Source: an uncultured Erysipelotrichaceae bacterium (GTDB lineage Bacteria; Bacillota_I; Bacilli_A; Erysipelotrichales; Erysipelotrichaceae). Taken from it: DNA of 41,652 bases. Location of the stretch: contig CADCOR010000054.1 in NCBI GenBank assembly GCA_902803055.1, positions 1-41,652 of the forward strand, written 5' to 3'. Every line of letters starts with the position of its first letter. Within the stretch, counting starts at the first letter, position 1. Made by a program: the position numbers and the translations under genes. This document shows positions 26,599 through 35,751 of this stretch, in pieces. The notes below the pieces were generated by a model that saw nothing but the letters and a program-made list of their open reading frames with translations, searched no databases and was not told the DNA's origin.

Positions 26599-27447
26599 AG
26601 CTGCATTGATTGCGGATGTGACAACGTGATCAAGAAGAACAGCGGTCGTAACTGCACCTACGCCGCCCGGGACCGGTGTCAGCATCTTGACTTTATCTTC
26701 AACATCTTCAGCCAAGACATCACCGCACAGCTTCTGCTTGGCTTCATTCCAGGAGATTCCGACATCGATGACACACATATCATCATTGACAAACTCGTCA
26801 TTTACTGCTTCCATCTGACCGCTGGCACAGACCAGGATATCAGCTTTCCTGCATTGGGCAGGCAGATCCTTGCTTCGGGAGTGACAGATCGTTACCGTTG
26901 CATTTCTGTTTAAAAGCATCATTGCTAAAGGTTTGCCTATGACAAGTGATCTGCCGATCACTGTAACATTCTTTGAACTGACCTCGATGTTATAGTAATC
27001 AAGTATTTCTAAGACTGCCTGAGCAGTGCATGGGGCAAAGCCTTTATTCTTATTGATGAAGATCGAAGCCAGCGATATATCGCAGCAGCCATCGATATCC
27101 TTATCAGGATTGATCCTGTTTCTTAACTGCTCATCGTCAAACTGCTTTGGCAAAGGCCGAAAGATCAATATGCCATGAATATTGCCATCAGCATTATCCT
27201 TATCCAGATCTTTATAAAGAAGTTCAGGATCAACATCTTCGCTGTATTCATGAAGCATCACTTTTACGCCCAGAGTCTCGCTTTTCTTGTTTATGCCTTT
27301 TAAATATGAAAGATCGGAGTCCTTATTGCCGACTTTGAAGACACTTAAAACTGGCTCAATCCCTTTATTCCTGAGCTCAGCGATCTGGTTAAGATCTTTT
27401 TCTTCGATTGCTTTTGCAACATCTTTTCCTTTTAACAGAACTGCCAT
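26587..27447 (-). CDS. folD: Methylenetetrahydrofolate dehydrogenase FolD, cyclohydrolase residues missing
   Basis: This 286-residue FolD-family protein has an intact Rossmann domain (VIGRSLVIGKPLAMMLL) and the C-terminal TPVPGGVGAVT motif, so NAD(P)-dependent oxidation of methylene-THF is expected. Two residues of the cyclohydrolase centre are changed. In the YxxxK motif the Tyr is kept (Tyr48) but the Lys (E. coli Lys54) is Ile52. In the VQLPLP motif the Gln (E. coli Gln98) is Phe96 (GILIFRPLP). The KDIDG Asp is retained. The gene follows fchA, a dedicated cyclohydrolase, with a 1-nt overlap, which fits a monofunctional dehydrogenase. Confidence 0.9.
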   Translation of the reverse strand: MAVLLKGKDVAKAIEEKDLNQIAELRNKGIEPVLSVFKVGNKDSDLSYLKGINKKSETLGVKVMLHEYSEDVDPELLYKDLDKDNADGNIHGILIFRPLPKQFDDEQLRNRINPDKDIDGCCDISLASIFINKNKGFAPCTAQAVLEILDYYNIEVSSKNVTVIGRSLVIGKPLAMMLLNRNATVTICHSRSKDLPAQCRKADILVCASGQMEAVNDEFVNDDMCVIDVGISWNEAKQKLCGDVLAEDVEDKVKMLTPVPGGVGAVTTAVLLDHVVTSAINAAKDL

Positions 27448-28061
27448 TACTTTTCCAGTCTCCCGCAGATATCATCATAGATATCGAGTGCTTTGATCGC
27501 ATATTCATCCAGCTGTTTCATTGTTTCCCGATTGAGATCTTCTGCATATGCACGATCTTTCATCAGTCTGGTATTGACAAGGATATTGATGTAGGCGGCA
27601 TATAAACAGCCATGAGCCAGCATCACGCTGGTTCCCGCATCAGATACGGATAATTTGGATCCGATAACAGCCAGTCTTTCGTCGATCTCAATGATTCTTA
27701 AGCAGTATCTGAAGATCAGTAAAGGGGAGTTGGCTGCATTTCTGAGCGCTTCTTCCATCTTTTCTGCATATCTTTCGCTGTTTTTATCCTGTTTATACAA
27801 TTCTGCCAGCGGCAGAAAAGCTTCTTCATCTTTTCTGATGCACTCCAGCAGATTGTTTCGGATTATCTCCAGTTCCTTGCGGATCTCGTTTATTTCAAGA
27901 GAATATTCCAGATATTTCTGCTTGCCAAAGGTGAGGTTGCAGACCATTTCCGCCAGGCAGGCCGCAAGTGAGCCGACTAAAGCCGTAACGCCGCCGCCTC
28001 CTGGTGTCGGCTGCTTGGAAGCAGTCAGATCAGCAAATTCCTTTAAAGACTTGTTTTCCAT
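27447..28061 (-). CDS. fchA: Methenyltetrahydrofolate cyclohydrolase / cyclodeaminase-fold protein
   Basis: This 204-residue protein belongs to the formiminotransferase-cyclodeaminase C-terminal domain family. The signature PTPGGGGVTALVGSLAACLAEMVCNLTFGK is at about 18-47, followed by an all-helical body. Stand-alone members act as 5,10-methenyl-THF cyclohydrolase (FchA) or formimino-THF cyclodeaminase. Between fhs and a FolD lacking cyclohydrolase residues, the cyclohydrolase role is the best reading. Spacing to fhs is 1 nt, and the stop overlaps the folD start. Confidence 0.9.
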   Translation of the reverse strand: MENKSLKEFADLTASKQPTPGGGGVTALVGSLAACLAEMVCNLTFGKQKYLEYSLEINEIRKELEIIRNNLLECIRKDEEAFLPLAELYKQDKNSERYAEKMEEALRNAANSPLLIFRYCLRIIEIDERLAVIGSKLSVSDAGTSVMLAHGCLYAAYINILVNTRLMKDRAYAEDLNRETMKQLDEYAIKALDIYDDICGRLEK

Positions 28062-28062
28062 A

Positions 28063-29733
28063 TCAGAATAATCCTGTGATAACGCCGTTCTCGTCGATAT
28101 CGATTCTTTCGGCTGCCGGTGATTTAGGCAAACCAGGCATTGTCATGATTTCGCCCGTCAAAGCGACAATAAAACCAGCTCCAGCTGAAACTTTGAGATT
28201 GCGGACCGTGATCCTGAAATTATCTGGTGCACCAAGTTTGCTTTGATCATCGGAGAATGAATATTGTGTCTTGGCCATGCATACCGGCAGGGAAGAATAG
28301 CCAAGTTCTTCAAGCTGCTTGAGCTGTTTAGGAGCGGTACCGATCAGATCGACGCCATCAGCGTGATAGACTTTCTTGGCTACAGCACACAGCTTATCAT
28401 AGATTGACATATCATCACTGTAGGAGAAAGTGAAATCATTTTCACATTCGCAGAGTCTGATGACTTCCTCAGCCAGTCTGATGCCGCCTTCACCGCCTTT
28501 AGCCCAGACTTCTGATAAAGCGACATTGACACCTAATTTACGGCATTGCGCTTCGACATAAGCAAGTTCTTTTTCGGTGTCGGCAGGGAAAGCATTGATT
28601 GCAACGACACAAGGAAGTTTATAGACTTTGGTGATATTTTCAACGTGTCTTAATAGATTAGGCATGCCTGCAGCCAGACATTCCATATCTTCCTTATCGA
28701 GATTTTCCTTTTTGCAGCCGCCGTGATGCTTAAGAGATCTGATCGTCGCAACAACAACTACGGCATCAGGTTTGAGATTGCCGATCCGGCATTTGATATC
28801 CAGAAATTTTTCTGCACCCAGATCAGCACCGAAACCAGCTTCCGTAATGGCGTAATCGCCAAGTTTCATTGCCATTCTGGTAGCGATCAAAGAGTTGCAG
28901 CCATGGGCGATATTGGCGAAAGGACCGCCATGAACTAAAGCAGGGGTACCTTCCAGGGTCTGTACCAGGTTAGGCTTGATAGCATCTTTAAGCAAAACAG
29001 CCATCGCACCTTCAGCTTTGAGTTCTCTGGCAAAGACCGGTTTGTCTTCATAAGTATAGCCGATGACGATATTGCCCAGCCGTTTTTTCAGATCGACGAT
29101 ATCACTGGAAAGACATAAGATAGCCATAACTTCGGAAGCGACTGTAATATCAAAGCCGTCCTGTCTTGGCGTGCCATCTGTTCTGTTTCCTAAACCATCG
29201 ACGATATTTCTGAGCTGGCGGTCATTCATGTCTACAGCGCGGCGCCAGGTTATTCTTTTCGGATCGATATTGAGTGAATTTCCCTGCTGGATATGATTAT
29301 CGATCATTGCGGCTAACAGGTTATTGGCAGCACCGATCGCATGGAAATCGCCGGTAAAGTGCAAGTTGATATCTTCCATCGGTACGACTTGTGCATATCC
29401 GCCGCCGGCTGCACCGCCTTTAATACCGAAGACCGGACCTAAAGATGGCTCACGTAAAGCAACAACCGCGTTCTTATTCAGTCTGTTCAGGCCATCGGCC
29501 AGTCCGATAGTTGTTGTGGTCTTGCCTTCGCCAGCCGGAGTAGGATTGATGGCTGTTACTAAAACAAGCTTGCCATCGGGACGGTCTGAGAGTTTTCTTA
29601 ACAGTGAATTATCGATCTTGGCCTTGTAGTTGCCATAAAGTTCCAGATCTTCTTCCGGAATGGATAATTTAGCAGCAATAGCCGTGATCTTTTCTTTTTT
29701 GCTGCGCTGCGCGATCTCAATATCAGTTAACAT
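28063..29733 (-). CDS. fhs: Formate-tetrahydrofolate ligase
   Basis: This 556-residue enzyme makes 10-formyl-THF from formate, THF and ATP. The P-loop PAGEGKTT is at residues 66-73, followed by the family block [19 protein letters not shown] and the [15 protein letters not shown] segment. Length is standard. AGGAGG is a strong RBS about 9 nt before the ATG. With FchA and FolD encoded downstream it provides the whole formate to methylene-THF route in either direction. Confidence 0.97.
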
Positions 29734-29755
29734 GTAAAAAGCCTCCTGTTAAATT

Positions 29756-30280
29756 TTATTGTGCGATTTTTCTTTTCAGAAAGGATATAAGTCTTGGCAG
29801 GATACTTGCATAAAGGAAAGCAAGTATGATGCCGACGATGATCTTAAAGAAGATATTCCCAAATACCAGGGCAGGTGAATAATAGCCATACATCTTAGAG
29901 TCGACATAAAGAGCCAGAATATTTAATGCAGTAATGCATAATGCGGAAACAACGGAAATAAAGGCGATCTTCTTGAAATCCAGATCATAATTGTTTTTTC
30001 TGGCATATAAGCCGACGAGCAGACCGCTGGCAAAATGCGGCAGGATCCACAGCGGAGTCGTAGGAGTCAGACCATAGCCGGAGAAAAACAGCTGATAGAT
30101 AAAGGCTCCCAGAGCGCCAACGAGTGCACCATCCCAAGGTCCCATCAGCAAGGCGGCGACCAGTACGGGGAAAGCTTCAAAGGTAAATTTGAAATTGATG
30201 ATTCTGATCGGGGTCAATATGCTCAAAACCACGTACACTGCCGAAAGCAGTGCAATTGTTGTTAACTTACGTACTTTCAT
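29756..30280 (-). CDS. folT: ECF transporter S component, probably folate-specific (FolT-like)
   Basis: This roughly 174-residue membrane protein has six predicted transmembrane helices and the ECF S-component fold signature near the N-terminus (TIALLSAVYVVLSIL). The FTFEAFPVLVAALLMGPWDGALVGALGAF block resembles FolT-type proteins. It sits 22 nt upstream of fhs-fchA-folD on the same strand, supporting folate or 5-formyl-THF uptake. Energising EcfA/A'/T subunits are not in the window. ATG 30280 is preferred; GTG 30286 would add two residues. No Shine-Dalgarno is present, but TATAAT lies 7 nt before the ATG. Another vitamin substrate cannot be excluded. Confidence 0.8.
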   Translation of the reverse strand: MKVRKLTTIALLSAVYVVLSILTPIRIINFKFTFEAFPVLVAALLMGPWDGALVGALGAFIYQLFFSGYGLTPTTPLWILPHFASGLLVGLYARKNNYDLDFKKIAFISVVSALCITALNILALYVDSKMYGYYSPALVFGNIFFKIIVGIILAFLYASILPRLISFLKRKIAQ

Positions 30281-30287
30281 AGTCACA

Positions 30288-30302: not shown

Positions 30303-30330
30303 TATTAAAAGTGATGCGCTAAGCATCACT
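30303..30330 (-). terminator. Terminator of the Fic-like gene
   Basis: On the minus strand AGTGATGC and GCATCACT form an 8-bp stem around TTAGC, followed by TTTTAATATA. It overlaps the stop codon of the Fic-like gene and insulates the folate operon. Confidence 0.75.
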
Positions 30331-30892
30331 AATAATCTAATTTAGGTCCTTTGACACAATACATGTAGATCCAGTCTTTGATATCGTAATCGTTGGAATC
30401 CTTGTATTCTTTCAGTTTTTCTCTGAAAAGCTGCCGTTTTGAGGCTGCTACGGTGATGATGCCGCAGCCATTGTCGACCATGAACTTGTTGGAAAACATC
30501 AGTGCAGCACGCACATCGCCATCGACAAAGAGCCTTTTATCCAAGATATAAAGCATGACATCGATCGCGACTTCCAGATTAGCTTTGGTCGGCTGATTGA
30601 TCATTAAGTTCAGTTCATCGATCTGCTGCTGGGAGAGCTCGGCTTTGATGCCGTTATCGAGATCTTTCATCAGGATCTCATGCAGTCTGAGCAGACATCT
30701 GTAGTCGTTTTCCACATCCGGGTTGTTCAATATGAAATCATATGCTTCCCTGAAATTGCGGTAAGCAATTTCTCTTTCCGGATCATCATCTTCATAACGG
30801 GAAAGAGCCAGATTGTTATAGATCAGTTCTTCCAGATTAGCTTTGACATAATTGACATTCTGACTTCTGCTTAAAGTATATTTATTGATCAT
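30329..30892 (-). CDS. Degenerate Fic-domain protein
   Basis: This 187-residue helical protein matches the Fic fold in pattern: an N-terminal inhibitory-helix-like segment (LEELIYNNLALSR), a mid-helix with LRLHEILMKDL, and a core loop at residues 120-128 reading RLFVDGDVR followed by AALMFSNKFMVDNGCGIITV. The Fic consensus is H-x-F-x-(D/E)-G-N-(G/K)-R. Here the catalytic His position is Arg120, Asn is Asp126 and the next residue is Val127, so classical AMP transfer is unlikely. The start at 30892 has AAGGT 9 nt upstream. It has its own terminator, and the nearby genes do not reveal a partner. Confidence 0.7.
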   Translation of the reverse strand: MINKYTLSRSQNVNYVKANLEELIYNNLALSRYEDDDPEREIAYRNFREAYDFILNNPDVENDYRCLLRLHEILMKDLDNGIKAELSQQQIDELNLMINQPTKANLEVAIDVMLYILDKRLFVDGDVRAALMFSNKFMVDNGCGIITVAASKRQLFREKLKEYKDSNDYDIKDWIYMYCVKGPKLDY

Positions 30893-30988: not shown

Positions 30989-32344
30989 ATGAATTCGCTT
31001 AGCTTTTATCTGGGTCTTTGCTCAGGAAAATTGGCTTCATTTTTACTGGGAAAAGATGATGATCGACCGGGACTGCTGGCCAGAAAGTTCGATATTGACT
31101 TCATGGCTCATGCGGGGAAACCGCAGCATGTCCTGCTGGTGACCGGTACCAATGGCAAGAGCTCGATCACCAATATGATCAATGATATGTATCAGGATCT
31201 ATGTGTCAAAACCAGCTGCAACGCCAATGGCAAGAACACCTTTGCCGGTCAGTCACTCGTCATGCTGAAAGCCAACTCGCTTTTCAATAAGCCCTGTGTC
31301 GATATGATCGTCATGGAGGCAGATGAGCTGCACGCTGATGAGACCTTTCCGCAGATCACTCCGACACATCTGATCATCTCCAATCTCGGCCGGGATTCAA
31401 TGTACAAAAATGCCAACCCGGAGATCCCATACCGTTCACTAAAAAAAGCCCTTGATAAGCTTAAGGATACTGTACTGTTTTTAAATGGTGATGATCCTCT
31501 CAGCTGCTTTATTTCTGATCAGCATAAAAGAATCTATTATGGGGTTGCGGATCTGGGTCTCAAAAGTCTTCCAAGCATCTCCAATGATTATTCCATCTGT
31601 ACCAGATGCGGTCATCAGCCAATCTATAAATATCGCAACTATCGCCATATCGGCGCTTTTGAATGTCCAAACTGTGGCTTGAAGGCTCCGGAAAAGGACT
31701 ATCTTTGTACTGACGTGAACGATACAACGATCACGGTAAAAGAAAAGGCGGGATCTTTTGTCTATCCCAAGATTTCCGATACGGTCTATAACATCTACAA
31801 TCAGACGGCAATCATTGCCTATTTCCGTGAAATGGGATATGAAGCCGCAAAGATCGCTGAATTGCTGAAAAAGATCAGACTGCCTGAATTCAGAGAAGAA
31901 CAGCTTACTGTCAACGGCATCGAAGTTATCAGAAGGGCTATGAAAGGGCAGAATGCTTCGGCTGCCGGTTCGGTTTTGCAATCCCTGATCGGCGAAGAAG
32001 GAAACAAGCTCGTCATCCTGATGGAAGATGAGATGCCCGATGAAACGACTCTCGAGACGATCTGCTGGATCTGGGATACGGATTTTGAATATCTCAAAGA
32101 TGACAAGATCAGAAAGATCATCGTTTCCGGCCGTCGGCATTTTGATCACAATGTCCGTCTTCTGACCGCAGGGATTGAGAGATCCCGGATGGTTCATTTT
32201 GAAGATGATCGCGAAATAGTAAATAACCTTGATGTCAAAGGTATTGATAAGATCTATATTCTTTATGATGTCGAAGCTTTCTCGCGCAGCAAGCTCGTTT
32301 TAAAGGAAGTTAAAGAATATCTGGAGAAGATACATGAAGATTGA
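30989..32344 (+). CDS. murT: MurT-like Mur ligase (lipid II isoglutaminyl synthase ATPase subunit homologue)
   Basis: This 451-residue Mur-ligase-fold protein has the ATP loop GTNGKSS at 53-59. The MurT-specific zinc ribbon is inserted in the central domain (Cys204, Cys207, Cys226, Cys229), and the C-terminal DUF1727-type domain has WIWDTDFE. MurT normally activates the alpha-carboxyl of D-Glu in lipid II, and GatD delivers ammonia. Substrate-loop motifs deviate from those I recall for MurT: NLGRDSMYKNANPE replaces the NxFRDQLDRYGE-type segment, and the NREGAN-type loop reads NANGKN. It overlaps the GatD-like gene by 11 nt, and a flippase gene follows. Exact substrate uncertain. Confidence 0.85.
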   Translation: MNSLSFYLGLCSGKLASFLLGKDDDRPGLLARKFDIDFMAHAGKPQHVLLVTGTNGKSSITNMINDMYQDLCVKTSCNANGKNTFAGQSLVMLKANSLFNKPCVDMIVMEADELHADETFPQITPTHLIISNLGRDSMYKNANPEIPYRSLKKALDKLKDTVLFLNGDDPLSCFISDQHKRIYYGVADLGLKSLPSISNDYSICTRCGHQPIYKYRNYRHIGAFECPNCGLKAPEKDYLCTDVNDTTITVKEKAGSFVYPKISDTVYNIYNQTAIIAYFREMGYEAAKIAELLKKIRLPEFREEQLTVNGIEVIRRAMKGQNASAAGSVLQSLIGEEGNKLVILMEDEMPDETTLETICWIWDTDFEYLKDDKIRKIIVSGRRHFDHNVRLLTAGIERSRMVHFEDDREIVNNLDVKGIDKIYILYDVEAFSRSKLVLKEVKEYLEKIHED

Positions 32345-33047
32345 AATTCTGTTTTCGGAAATGGGCATCTATTATGGCGACTATGGCAACATAGTCTATT
32401 TGACAAAGTGCCTGCCGGATGCACAGTTTATCTATACCGATAATCTCAGCAGACCAGCTTTTCTTGATGAAGAAGTTGATCTTGTCTATCTTGGCTCTTT
32501 AAGTGAAAACAAACAGAAACTGGCTATTGAACGTCTGCTTCCTTATCGTGATGCAATCAAAGAAAAGATAGAAGAAGGAGTCTTTTTCCTTTTTACCGGC
32601 AATGCGATCGAGATATTGGGAAATTATATTTCGGATGATGAGGGAAAAACCAAGGCTCTTGGCATTTTTGATTTTTACAGCAGACGCAGCTTTGCAAGAC
32701 GCCTTAATTATCTTGTGATGGGCAAGGAAGAGGATATCATAATAGTAGGCAATAAATCGCAGTATTCTGAACTCTATGATCTCAAGGAAAAACCTTTCAT
32801 GGAGATAATTAACGGCATGGGCAATAACAGTACTGACAAGTCTGAAGGCATTCATTACCGCAATCTCTATGCGACTTACCTGCTTGGTCCTTTGCTTGTG
32901 CTGAATCCTTTATTTGCCAAAAAACTATTACAGCAGCTTGGTCATGATAAGCCTTTAGCATATGAAGAGGATATCATGGCGGCCTATGAAAAAAGAGTTG
33001 AGGAGATGAATAATCCCAAGCTGATCTATAAGCTTAGTGAACACTGA
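32334..33047 (+). CDS. gatD: GatD-like glutamine amidotransferase homologue lacking catalytic Cys and His
   Basis: This 237-residue protein corresponds to GatD, the class I glutaminase subunit of MurT/GatD, in position, length and landmarks (YGDYGNI near residue 15; GNNSTDKSEGIHYRNLYATYL near 165-183). The nucleophile segment, normally of the form x-C-G-G-Y-Q, reads LFTGNAIEILG (Thr88-Gly89). The only cysteine in the whole protein is Cys26. The catalytic His in the TYLHGP motif is Leu184 (TYLLGP). It therefore cannot be a canonical glutaminase. Reading frame and coupling are intact (start inside murT, stop overlapping the flippase start), so it is a maintained pseudo-enzyme, not a decaying gene. 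Confidence 0.8.
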   Translation: MKIEILFSEMGIYYGDYGNIVYLTKCLPDAQFIYTDNLSRPAFLDEEVDLVYLGSLSENKQKLAIERLLPYRDAIKEKIEEGVFFLFTGNAIEILGNYISDDEGKTKALGIFDFYSRRSFARRLNYLVMGKEEDIIIVGNKSQYSELYDLKEKPFMEIINGMGNNSTDKSEGIHYRNLYATYLLGPLLVLNPLFAKKLLQQLGHDKPLAYEEDIMAAYEKRVEEMNNPKLIYKLSEH

Positions 33048-34678
33048 TGAAAAAAACGATGAAGAAAAATGAATTTGCGGAAAGCACATTCATATCATAT
33101 ATCGCTATTGTGGCCTCGAAAGTTCTGGGCATTCTTTATAATATCCCTTTTTATGGACTGATCGGACCGGGCGGTTTTATCTATTCACTTGCTTATCAGA
33201 TCTATGCGCTGTTTCTGGATATCTCAACTTCCGGCATTCCTACGGCGATCAGTATCGTCGTCGGCCACTATAATTCCTTAAAACAGTATTTCAATAAAGA
33301 AAAAGCCTATAAGATCGGCAGCAGAGTTATTCTGCTTGTTTCTTTGCTGTCTTTTATCTTCATGCAGTTTGGCGCAGAAGCCATAGCCCGTTTCTATCTT
33401 TCTTCCATGAAAGAGGGTGCAAGCATTCATGATGTCGCTGCAGCTATCAGGTGCGTTTCCTTCTGCGTGCTGATCGTTCCGTTTTTAAGTATCAGAAGGG
33501 GCTATCTGCAAGGTCATCACTTCTTTGAACTGTCTTCCAAATCACAGGTCATCGAACAGTTTGTCCGCATCATCTTTGCCCTGGCTGGGGCATATCTGCT
33601 TATCAGAGTCTTTAAGCGTTCTGTTCAATCAGGTGTCAATATTGCTTTATTCGGTGCTTTTGTCGGAGCTTTGGCCGCCTTTATCTATGTTGATGTCAAT
33701 ATGCGCAATAACGCTTCAAGTTTTCCTAAGGGTTCGGCAGACGAGAAAATTGATGATACGATGAAGATCGTCAAGAAGATCGCCGGTTATTGTGCGACGA
33801 TCACTCTGGTTTCGATTGCCTCAAGCGTCTACAATATCGTTGATACCAAGCTGATGCTGGAAGGCCTTCGCAAAGTAGGCTATCCCGATATCGTGAATCA
33901 GGAGATCTCTTCTTTGATTTCTTCCTGGGTCCCGAAAATGACTGAAGCCATGGGAGCTTTAGCGATCGCTATGACTTCTTCGATCGCCCCGCATATTGCA
34001 GACAGTTTTGCGAATAACGATATCAAAGGCGTATCCGAAAAGATCAATCGCGGTATCTCCATCCTGATTCTGATCTGCATACCGCTGACTGTCGGTATCT
34101 ATGTCTTTGCGGAACCATATTTCACGCTGTTTTATGGCTTCAACAAATATGGTGCCCCTTTATTGAGAATCAATGTCTTATTCAATCTGGTCTCTTGTTT
34201 CACGATGGTTCTGAGCATGGCTTTGCAAAGCCTTGATCGGGGCAGAAAAGTCATATTCATCGTCTTAACATCCATCATCATGAATACTGCCATGGACCTG
34301 CCGCTGATATATCTGTTTGATTATCTTGGCTTGCCTGCCTATTTAGGCTGCGGCACTTCGAGCATCATTGCTGAACTGTTCAAGATCATCTTCCTGCTGC
34401 GTTTCATTTCTCATGATGTCCATATCGATTATCGTGATTCTTTAAACGTCTTAGGCAAAACGTTTTTGCCGCTATTAGCCATGACTGTTACGGTTTTGCT
34501 GATCAGAATGATCTGGCCGCCTGTGAACTCAAGAGTGCTGCTTTTATTCCAGCTGATGGTTTATGCCTTATCGGGTATATTGGTCTATGGCCTGCTGGGA
34601 CTTAAAAACGGCGTAATCAGAGACGTTTTCACTTCCGAAAAGGTAGATGCTTTGTTGCATAGATTAAAGATCGGGTAA
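33047..34678 (+). CDS. MurJ/YtgP-type lipid-linked oligosaccharide flippase (MVF/MATE superfamily)
   Basis: This 543-residue protein has about fourteen hydrophobic segments. The pattern SIRRGYLQGHHFFELSSKSQVIEQFVRI closely follows the RGYLQG...SQVIEQ-RV block of the Bacillota YtgP (MurJ-like)/SpoVB family, which flips lipid II or related undecaprenyl-linked precursors. An oligosaccharide flippase of the same superfamily is the alternative. It is translationally coupled to the GatD-like gene (overlap at 33047), tying the pair to cell-wall precursor export. Confidence 0.85.
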   Translation: MKKTMKKNEFAESTFISYIAIVASKVLGILYNIPFYGLIGPGGFIYSLAYQIYALFLDISTSGIPTAISIVVGHYNSLKQYFNKEKAYKIGSRVILLVSLLSFIFMQFGAEAIARFYLSSMKEGASIHDVAAAIRCVSFCVLIVPFLSIRRGYLQGHHFFELSSKSQVIEQFVRIIFALAGAYLLIRVFKRSVQSGVNIALFGAFVGALAAFIYVDVNMRNNASSFPKGSADEKIDDTMKIVKKIAGYCATITLVSIASSVYNIVDTKLMLEGLRKVGYPDIVNQEISSLISSWVPKMTEAMGALAIAMTSSIAPHIADSFANNDIKGVSEKINRGISILILICIPLTVGIYVFAEPYFTLFYGFNKYGAPLLRINVLFNLVSCFTMVLSMALQSLDRGRKVIFIVLTSIIMNTAMDLPLIYLFDYLGLPAYLGCGTSSIIAELFKIIFLLRFISHDVHIDYRDSLNVLGKTFLPLLAMTVTVLLIRMIWPPVNSRVLLLFQLMVYALSGILVYGLLGLKNGVIRDVFTSEKVDALLHRLKIG

Positions 34679-34687
34679 GCTGTGGAA

Positions 34688-34703
34688 TTCTTTTATAAAA
34701 GAA
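34688..34703. repeat. 16-bp perfect palindrome upstream of the ATP-grasp gene
   Basis: TTCTTTTATAAAAGAA reads identically on both strands. It lies 10 nt after the flippase stop and about 38 nt before the ATP-grasp start. It could be an operator overlapping an AT-rich -10 region; no loop or T-tract supports a terminator. Confidence 0.4.
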
Positions 34704-34740
34704 ATACAACGCCTGATTACGAGAACGAGGAATTAAGTAT

Positions 34741-35751
34741 ATGAAAAAACTGCTTTATGTGTTTAGAAGAATTCTTTCTCTTGACTACAAGAGTTTCTTT
34801 CAGACGATCAATGAACTGCATAAACGAAGCGGCAAGAGCAGGATCTGGCTGTTTTTTGACATCATTTACTGCGGTTTCAAATATGGGGCTGGTTATCTCG
34901 ACTATAAGTGGTTTCAGTTTTATGATCTTTCGCCGGAGCTCAGAAGTACCTATATAACCCGGATGAAAAACAATCAGATCGTACGGCTCCTTAATGATCC
35001 GGAGTATTATGATCTGGTCGATAATAAAGTCAGATTCCTCAAGCTGTTCAAAGATTATGTACACCGTGACTGGCTGTATCTGCCGGAATGCGAATATGCT
35101 GATTTTGAAGCTTTTGTTTCCAAACATGATGAAATGATGATCAAATCAGTCTATGGTACCGGCGGTCATGGCGTCAGGAAGATCTATCTGAAGGATTTTG
35201 AAAACGTCAGATCAATGTATGATTATATCCTTGCTGCCAAAATGCCGTTGGTAGAAGAATGCATAAAACAGCACGAAGACATCAACCGGATCTATCCGTA
35301 CTCAGTTAATACCTATCGCATTCTGACGATCAGGGATGAACAGAATACTGATCTGATCTTTGCCTATATCCGCATCGGCAATAACGGGTCTTCTGTTGAT
35401 AACCATCACTCCGGCGGCATGTCGACACCGATCGATCTGAACAGCGGCAAGATCCTTTATCCGGCTATTGATATCGAAGGCAATCTTTTTGACAGCCATC
35501 CGATGACAGGAACAAAGCTGCTTGGCTATCAGCTTCCATGCTGGAAAGAAGCAGTTGCCATGGTCAAAGAGGCAGCACAGATCGTTCCGCAGCTCAGATA
35601 TATCGGCTGGGATGTCGCAATCTCTGAAGACGGTCCATTGCTTATAGAAGGAAATCATCTGCCGGGCTATGACTCCATGCAGCTTCCAGCTCAGAATCCC
35701 GACCGGGTCGGATTCCTGCCTTTATACCGTAAATATGTCAAAAACATCTGA
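34741..35751 (+). CDS. ATP-grasp protein, sugar-transfer-associated type
   Basis: This 336-residue protein fits the ATP-grasp fold. The nucleotide lysine and glycine-rich loop segment is MIKSVYGTGGHGVRKI (about 138-153), the central VEECIKQHEDINRIYPYSVNTYRILT block follows, and the metal-binding end is YIGWDVAISEDGPLLIEGNHLPGYDS. The pattern resembles the sugar-transfer-associated ATP-grasp family, often found in polysaccharide clusters. ATP-grasp enzymes ligate carboxylates to amines, so peptide or amino-acid ligation onto an envelope precursor is possible here beside MurT-like and flippase genes. The RBS is GAGGA. The substrate is unknown. Confidence 0.8.
   Translation: MKKLLYVFRRILSLDYKSFFQTINELHKRSGKSRIWLFFDIIYCGFKYGAGYLDYKWFQFYDLSPELRSTYITRMKNNQIVRLLNDPEYYDLVDNKVRFLKLFKDYVHRDWLYLPECEYADFEAFVSKHDEMMIKSVYGTGGHGVRKIYLKDFENVRSMYDYILAAKMPLVEECIKQHEDINRIYPYSVNTYRILTIRDEQNTDLIFAYIRIGNNGSSVDNHHSGGMSTPIDLNSGKILYPAIDIEGNLFDSHPMTGTKLLGYQLPCWKEAVAMVKEAAQIVPQLRYIGWDVAISEDGPLLIEGNHLPGYDSMQLPAQNPDRVGFLPLYRKYVKNI

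Follow-up and report, generated by a model that had tools for sequence, protein, structure and literature searches.

MurT/GatD-like pairs that lack the glutaminase residues of GatD: a candidate family of amino-acid ligases in Erysipelotrichia and Oscillospirales

The four-gene cluster and its MurT/GatD pair

We analyzed a stretch of 41,652 nucleotides (hereafter the window) from an uncultured Erysipelotrichaceae bacterium (assembly GCA_902803055.1, contig CADCOR010000054.1, positions 1-41,652, forward strand), and more precisely four genes encoding a MurT-type ligase, a GatD-like protein, a flippase, and an ATP-grasp ligase. The source is a metagenome-assembled genome (MAG) that is 73% complete. 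The four genes lie on the + strand and overlap or nearly so, with a gap of 62 bases before the last one. The MurT-type ligase (451 aa; 30989..32344, +) matches Mur_ligase_M and MurT_C above the Pfam cut-offs (70 bits). It is followed by a pseudo-GatD of 237 aa (32334..33047, +), which has the GATase_3 fold without the catalytic Cys and His (Pfam, 40 bits; AlphaFold2 model), by a SpoVB/MurJ-like flippase of lipid-linked precursors (543 aa; 33047..34678, +; Polysacc_synt, MurJ, and MatE Pfam matches), and by an ATP-grasp ligase of the family PF14397 (ATPgrasp_ST; 336 aa; 34741..35751, +; Pfam and AlphaFold2 model). The original prediction, made from the sequence of the window, had described this cluster, and we recovered its open reading frames and expected Pfam families at the same positions. 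The same cassette is present, with 76-86% identity, in a closely related MAG from goat jejunum (L029/L073), which shows that the cluster is not an assembly artefact.

When searched against solved structures, the window's MurT matches those of Streptococcus pneumoniae (6fqb_A, E-value 2.4e-36) and Staphylococcus aureus (E-value 2e-30). Its ATP P-loop GTNGKS (residues 53-58, in the context VTGTNGKS; 31145..31162, +) and its Cys4 zinc ribbon (C204, C207, C226, and C229; 31598..31675, +) are intact, as predicted, and the altered loops reported along with them (NLGRDSMYKNANPE and NANGKN) are present in the sequence. We aligned 123 MurTs of the type found in the window, called dead-GatD type for the partner described below, with 32 canonical MurTs. 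Both classes conserve the P-loop, the acidic ATP residues, the zinc cysteines, and two loop residues, Asp136 and Arg140 (S. pneumoniae numbering). The classes differ in the loop that corresponds to the ammonia-channel loop, whose role has been described (PMC6085368), and that aligns with residues N132-N143 of the window's protein (NLGRDSMYKNAN; 31382..31417, +). Its consensus is RDQxDRxxE in canonical MurTs and RDSxxRNxH in the dead-GatD type: Gln137, Asp139, and Glu143 have been replaced, and Ser137 (94/123), Asn141 (120/123), and His143 (106/123) are newly conserved. The conservation of the new Asn and His indicates that the loop is under selection and not in decay. The gate motif is also longer in these proteins, with the canonical Asn changed to Asp; in the window, the alignments place the rearranged gate region at residues 347-360, starting with this Asp 347 (32027..32068, +).

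The window's GatD is matched to that of S. aureus among solved structures (E-value 4e-20), which is also the best PDB match of its AlphaFold2 model (6gs2_A, TM-score 0.85; mean predicted local distance difference test score, pLDDT, of 93). The protein had been predicted to be unable to supply ammonia, and the pairwise alignment with S. aureus GatD bears this out. A TGNA motif (residues 88-91, in LFTGNA; 32595..32606, +) occupies the site of the nucleophile, with Gly at the position of Cys94, and the catalytic His189 is replaced by Leu184 (in TYLLGP; 32883..32885, +). Since both residues are replaced, this GatD should be incapable of glutamine hydrolysis, and we refer to such proteins as dead GatDs. 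As for the third residue of the triad, HMMER pairs Asp351 of the window with Asp349 of S. aureus, whereas the multiple alignment, where the gate is lengthened and rearranged, does not. Given this ambiguity we dropped the complete loss of the triad and claim only that of the Cys and the His. The curated NCBIfam cut-offs (800 bits for MurT, 400-450 for GatD) exceed the scores of the window's proteins (143 and 90 bits, respectively), and we also gave them up as a way to tell the classes apart because a canonical member with Cys and His (L003) falls below them too (283 and 189 bits).

The loss of both catalytic residues might be expected of a decaying pseudogene pair without enzymatic role. However, the genes are full-length open reading frames in more than 100 loci of two classes, and the ATP and zinc sites are intact. 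New motifs are also conserved, and on this last ground we rejected this explanation as scarcely credible. A second alternative is that the pair still makes D-isoglutamine, using the free ammonia that abounds in the gut, the glutaminase having decayed and GatD being left as a scaffold. In S. aureus, MurT is inactive without GatD and neither subunit works alone (PMC3266927). The engineered C94G change in GatD abolishes the use of glutamine, and MurT, with the mutant GatD still required, amidates lipid II with NH3 at pH 8.5 (PMC3266927; PMC6085368). The mutant has the same Cys-to-Gly change as the GatD of the window and a MurT that is active with external nitrogen, and the retention of Asp136 and Arg140 in the channel loop also suits an ammonia-dependent reaction. 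However, the S. aureus pair does not use ammonia at pH 7.5 (PMC3266927), and the mutant is an engineered protein working with NH3 at high pH, whereas here the change is natural and comes with a remodelled channel loop. The new conserved residues of this loop and of the gate are not what mere relaxation would leave. The behaviour of the C94G mutant argues that a dead GatD is a workable scaffold and that some other amine has to supply the nitrogen.

Distribution of the pair and exclusion of its canonical counterpart

We surveyed 237 genomes of Erysipelotrichales, 146 of which have MurT_C matches, and split these into strong (E-value < 1e-28) and weak ones. Most of the genomes compared in this work are MAGs. 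Wherever the GatD could be read, it has the canonical CG[G/A] and HGP motifs when associated with a strong MurT, and lacks the Cys and the His when associated with a weak one (the gene of G096 is a canonical one truncated by the end of the contig). A scan of named genomes gave 236 coding places, the best 80 of which are mostly from clostridial MAGs and also include Neglectibacter timonensis. Among these best 80 of 236 places, the Cys and the His are absent from all the GatDs that could be aligned (79/79), the majority of which have TGN[A/S]. In N. timonensis SN17, which is cultured, the dead-GatD type is the only MurT seen, and the genome also encodes a diaminobutyrate aminotransferase and two ATP-grasps.

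The two types of pairs were never found in the same genome, neither among the 146 MurT-bearing genomes of Erysipelotrichales nor among the 61 MurT-bearing genomes (17 canonical, 44 weak) of the 237 Oscillospirales that we searched. Similarly, canonical MurT is absent from the 36 clostridial genomes carrying the dead-GatD pair. A tree of 102 MurT and GatD pairs shows that a single change divides the two classes. Judging from these sequences, pairs with a dead GatD are a widespread and previously undescribed family, not a case of local decay. Their mutual exclusion with the canonical pair suggests that both act on the same D-Glu alpha-carboxyl.

The source genome follows this pattern. The original prediction had named a second, canonical murT/gatD pair elsewhere in the genome as evidence that would count against it; we looked for one in this 73%-complete MAG and the MurT_C search returned two loci, both with a dead GatD. 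The second pair (contig C114 of G000; L001/L005) is flanked by a metS-like gene and a PAP2 phosphatase, and its GatD is also devoid of the Cys and the His (TGNA; IIGP). The two pairs are located in separate parts of the dead-GatD side of the tree. Other genomes also retain two to three MurT/pseudo-GatD paralogues, which would be odd for a single reaction with ammonia. On the canonical side, we noticed a MurT match within an open frame of 1167 codons, possibly a fusion (G417:C17:506970-507305).

Flippase, ATP-grasp, and diamino-acid gene neighbours

The flippase of the window passes the cut-off of PF03023 (37.5 vs. 27.4 bits) and remains below the curated ones of TIGR02900 (104.5 vs. 372) and TIGR01695 (38.5 vs. 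236). It is the only copy that the sequence search found in the genome. A relative of it is naturally fused to MurT, in one frame of 1004 aa followed by a Cys-less GatD (L122:4990-8004). Elsewhere the pair is found among genes of peptidoglycan synthesis, in the order PBP-mraY-murD-murT-gatD (PBP, penicillin-binding protein) within a division and cell wall (dcw) cluster (L040), flippase-murT-gatD-..-murC (L010), or murT-gatD-ATPgrasp-murB (L115). In many Clostridia it stands between aspS/mnmA-like and rlmN-stp-prkC-like genes.

The ATP-grasp of the window is well above the gathering score of PF14397 (203.8 vs. 31.4 bits) and is the only copy of this family found in the genome. No relative was found in the PDB by sequence, and the fold of the AlphaFold2 model (pLDDT 88) is nearest to RimK and peptide ligases. 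The family is associated with the dead-GatD pair: in Erysipelotrichales it is present in 41/48 genomes with a dead GatD, 7/98 with the canonical pair, and 22/91 without MurT (Fisher's exact test on the first two, p=1e-21). When counted by genus, it occurs in 12 of the 16 dead-GatD genera and in one of the 29 canonical ones (p=7e-7). In Oscillospirales, the corresponding numbers of genomes are 23/44, 1/17, and 6/19 (p=9e-4 for the first two). In relatives, the gene adjoins rodA or ftsA-ftsZ, and in one genome (G148) it is near murI.

These neighbours bear on the possibility that the pair acts on another lipid-linked polymer or on a secondary metabolite, and not on peptidoglycan. Flippases of this family transport other polymers as well, the one in the window matches Polysacc_synt, and the name of PF14397 refers to sugar-transfer clusters. 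A genome of the canonical genus g8 (L284) appears, by eye, to have its ATP-grasps amid sugar-modification genes. However, the placement after mraY-murD in the dcw cluster, the pairs adjacent to murC, murB, and alr, the ATP-grasps by rodA and ftsA-ftsZ, and the fact that the pair and its canonical peptidoglycan counterpart exclude each other all point to peptidoglycan, and we regard another substrate as quite improbable.

The other informative neighbours are genes of diamino-acid metabolism. A diaminobutyrate aminotransferase directly adjoins the pair in six loci (L110, L139, L146, L147, L235, and L290). The five that are annotated as such score 561-610 bits with NF006733 (cut-off 438), and four of these five also pass the cut-off of TIGR02407 (the one of L139 is below, 527.5 vs. 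552.2); the sixth, L235, was identified by BLAST only, outside the search of nine genomes described next. Among the nine dead-GatD genomes with a strong match to the aminotransferase, all clostridial, the gene is adjacent to the pair in five. The MurTs of four of the six loci were compared and are only 39-53% identical, which suggests that the association is either old or repeated. An arginase-like gene adjoins the pair in three loci, two of them closely related (MurTs 75% identical) and one more distant (~50%); its best family is TIGR01229, with scores (188-212 bits) below the cut-off of 227.6. Ammonia-dependent amidation leaves the aminotransferase and arginase-like neighbours unexplained, and with all points considered we deem it unlikely.

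In one locus (L290:1747-6099), four packed genes encode the aminotransferase, MurT, dead GatD, and an alanine racemase that is the only one found in its genome. The racemase beside the pair in G246 was considered as a possible diaminobutyrate racemase, an assignment that we did not keep since it is the sole alanine racemase found in G246.

We also noted the site of the window's cluster. In two genomes of its genus (g1), a lone ATP-grasp gene lies at a site marked by ECF and fhs genes and, in one of them, by the gene of a 187-aa protein. The window has this protein, which has no Pfam match (30329..30892, -), and its cassette sits at the same ECF/fhs site, but the ATP-grasp that it brings is another one, with 32-35% identity to those resident in L279 and L280. 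By eye, the genes adjoining the cluster at 27447-30286 are formate-tetrahydrofolate-ligase-like, cyclodeaminase-like, and ECF-type, and similar genes are the neighbours of the ATP-grasp in the two other genomes.

A proposed reaction and its relation to group-B walls

We favor, over ammonia-dependent amidation, the reading in which MurT/pseudo-GatD is an amino-acid ligase acting on the D-Glu alpha-carboxyl of the precursor, and we consider it rather probable. The pair would use ATP to activate the D-Glu alpha-carboxyl of a peptidoglycan precursor, probably lipid-linked, and would link it to an amino acid, through the amino group of the latter, instead of to glutamine-derived ammonia. GatD would have lost its glutaminase chemistry and been kept as an obligatory structural half, with the former ammonia path remodelled. 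In several lineages, this amine is probably a diamino acid (2,4-diaminobutyrate, or perhaps ornithine). The ATP-grasp would probably add a further residue and the flippase would export the modified lipid II. The gene content, the loss of the Cys and the His, the new conserved motifs, the exclusion of the canonical pair, the neighbourhoods, and the co-occurrence are observations, whereas we infer the acceptor carboxyl, the identity of the amine, the order of the steps, and which wall type the window's organism has. The broader proposal that a large family of (di)amino-acid ligases arose when MurT/GatD lost its glutaminase, and makes branches on the D-Glu alpha-carboxyl or group-B-like bridges, together with the ATP-grasp, in Erysipelotrichia and Oscillospirales, is one we make tentatively, as a possibility that falls a little short of even.

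Several observations weigh against this reading. The aminotransferase is located away from the pair in four of the nine clostridial genomes that have it. Strong matches to it are absent from the 46 dead-GatD Erysipelotrichaceae genomes, so that the diamino-acid neighbours are those of clostridial relatives and not of the window; they are also absent from 80 canonical or MurT-less genomes of Erysipelotrichales, and together these two results assign the diaminobutyrate link to the clostridial branch. ATPgrasp_ST is also present in genomes without MurT, and its association with the pair was corrected for shared ancestry only by counting genera and by repeating the comparison in Oscillospirales. 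Finally, two observations touch the wall type. In the genus g22, probably Erysipelothrix (group B), MurT is detectable in one genome out of 12. The MurE of five of the six diaminobutyrate-linked genomes (none was found in G252) has the motif DNPR, which would be unusual for known group-B walls. This motif is typical of ligases of diaminopimelate (DAP).

The last two points also bear on the special case in which the pair is a true group-B bridge system, setting the first bridge residue on D-Glu, with the ATP-grasp completing the cross-link from D-Glu to D-Ala; being contained in the favoured reading, its likelihood overlaps with that of the latter. In its favor, relatives of the window's organism, Holdemania filiformis and Erysipelothrix rhusiopathiae, have B1-delta walls (PMC4062643), and in Clavibacter, whose wall is B2-gamma, the diamino acid is diaminobutyrate (PMC5358740). 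Within Erysipelotrichales, the ATP-grasp occurs chiefly in genomes with a dead GatD and in g22, the probable Erysipelothrix, and the MurE of the window's organism has the motif DDPS, which is not of the DAP type. However, group B in the 11 of 12 probable Erysipelothrix genomes without MurT would not need MurT, and the DNPR motifs of the diaminobutyrate-linked genomes speak against it. The dead-GatD pair is also common in Oscillospirales, several of which carry a DNPR-type MurE. We find a group-B bridge system rather unlikely. Of the original prediction, the joining by MurT of something other than glutamine-derived ammonia and the partnership with the ATP-grasp gained support from the family pattern, the exclusion, the neighbours, and the co-occurrence, whereas the link to group B was not established.

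The closest known system is the lipid II isoglutaminyl synthase MurT/GatD of S. aureus, S. pneumoniae, and Streptococcus pyogenes. The family described here has the same gene pair, folds, ATP loop, zinc ribbon, Asp136, and Arg140, but differs from it by the loss of the GatD Cys and His, by the motifs TGN[A/S] and RDSxxRNxH, by never being found beside the canonical pair in one genome, and by its flippase, ATP-grasp, and diamino-acid gene neighbours. The archaeal MurT-like protein and the pseudomurein ligases pMurC/D/E are likewise Mur ligases that diverged from the canonical function, but the former has no GatD (PMC11915815), whereas here GatD is kept and dead. The reaction that we propose would resemble the attachment of amines to the D-Glu alpha-carboxyl in group-B bridges (B1-delta and B2-gamma) and in Negativicutes, where diamines and polyamines are placed on this carboxyl (PMC10628300). 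In the literature searches that we made, we found no gene described for either of these steps, and no report on group-B bridge enzymes or on a Cys-less GatD. For the second enzyme, a parallel is AslA of lactic acid bacteria, an ATP-grasp that adds D-Asp to a peptidoglycan precursor, at the L-Lys of the stem (PMC4155827); the PF14397 enzyme of the window differs in having no solved sequence relative and a fold nearest to RimK.

Staphylococci and streptococci depend on MurT/GatD as an essential enzyme, and D-Glu amidation shapes cross-linking and the response to antibiotics. A natural family with a dead yet retained glutaminase half suggests that the complex lends itself to a new use and, if our reading is true, offers a candidate gene for placing amino acids on the D-Glu alpha-carboxyl. 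The predicted wall chemistry of many uncultured gut bacteria would then change, as domain matches alone read the pair as an isoglutaminyl synthase.

The probable Erysipelothrix genus has genes of its own to consider. PF14397 is present in 11 of its 12 genomes, mostly in two copies (G152 is the one not listed), and, if g22 is Erysipelothrix, these genes are candidate bridge enzymes. In four genomes, G148 (L271), G147 (L272), G149 (L273), and G144 (L274), two ATPgrasp_ST genes lie around tig-lon-engB-like genes, without MurT. Variation was also seen among MurE ligases. Besides its MurE, the genome of the window encodes a divergent MurE-like ligase that scores below the cut-off for MurE (G000:C88:6-1142, L067). 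Ligases resembling it are found in G125, G130, and G135, whereas G211 and G247 have MurE genes in tandem.

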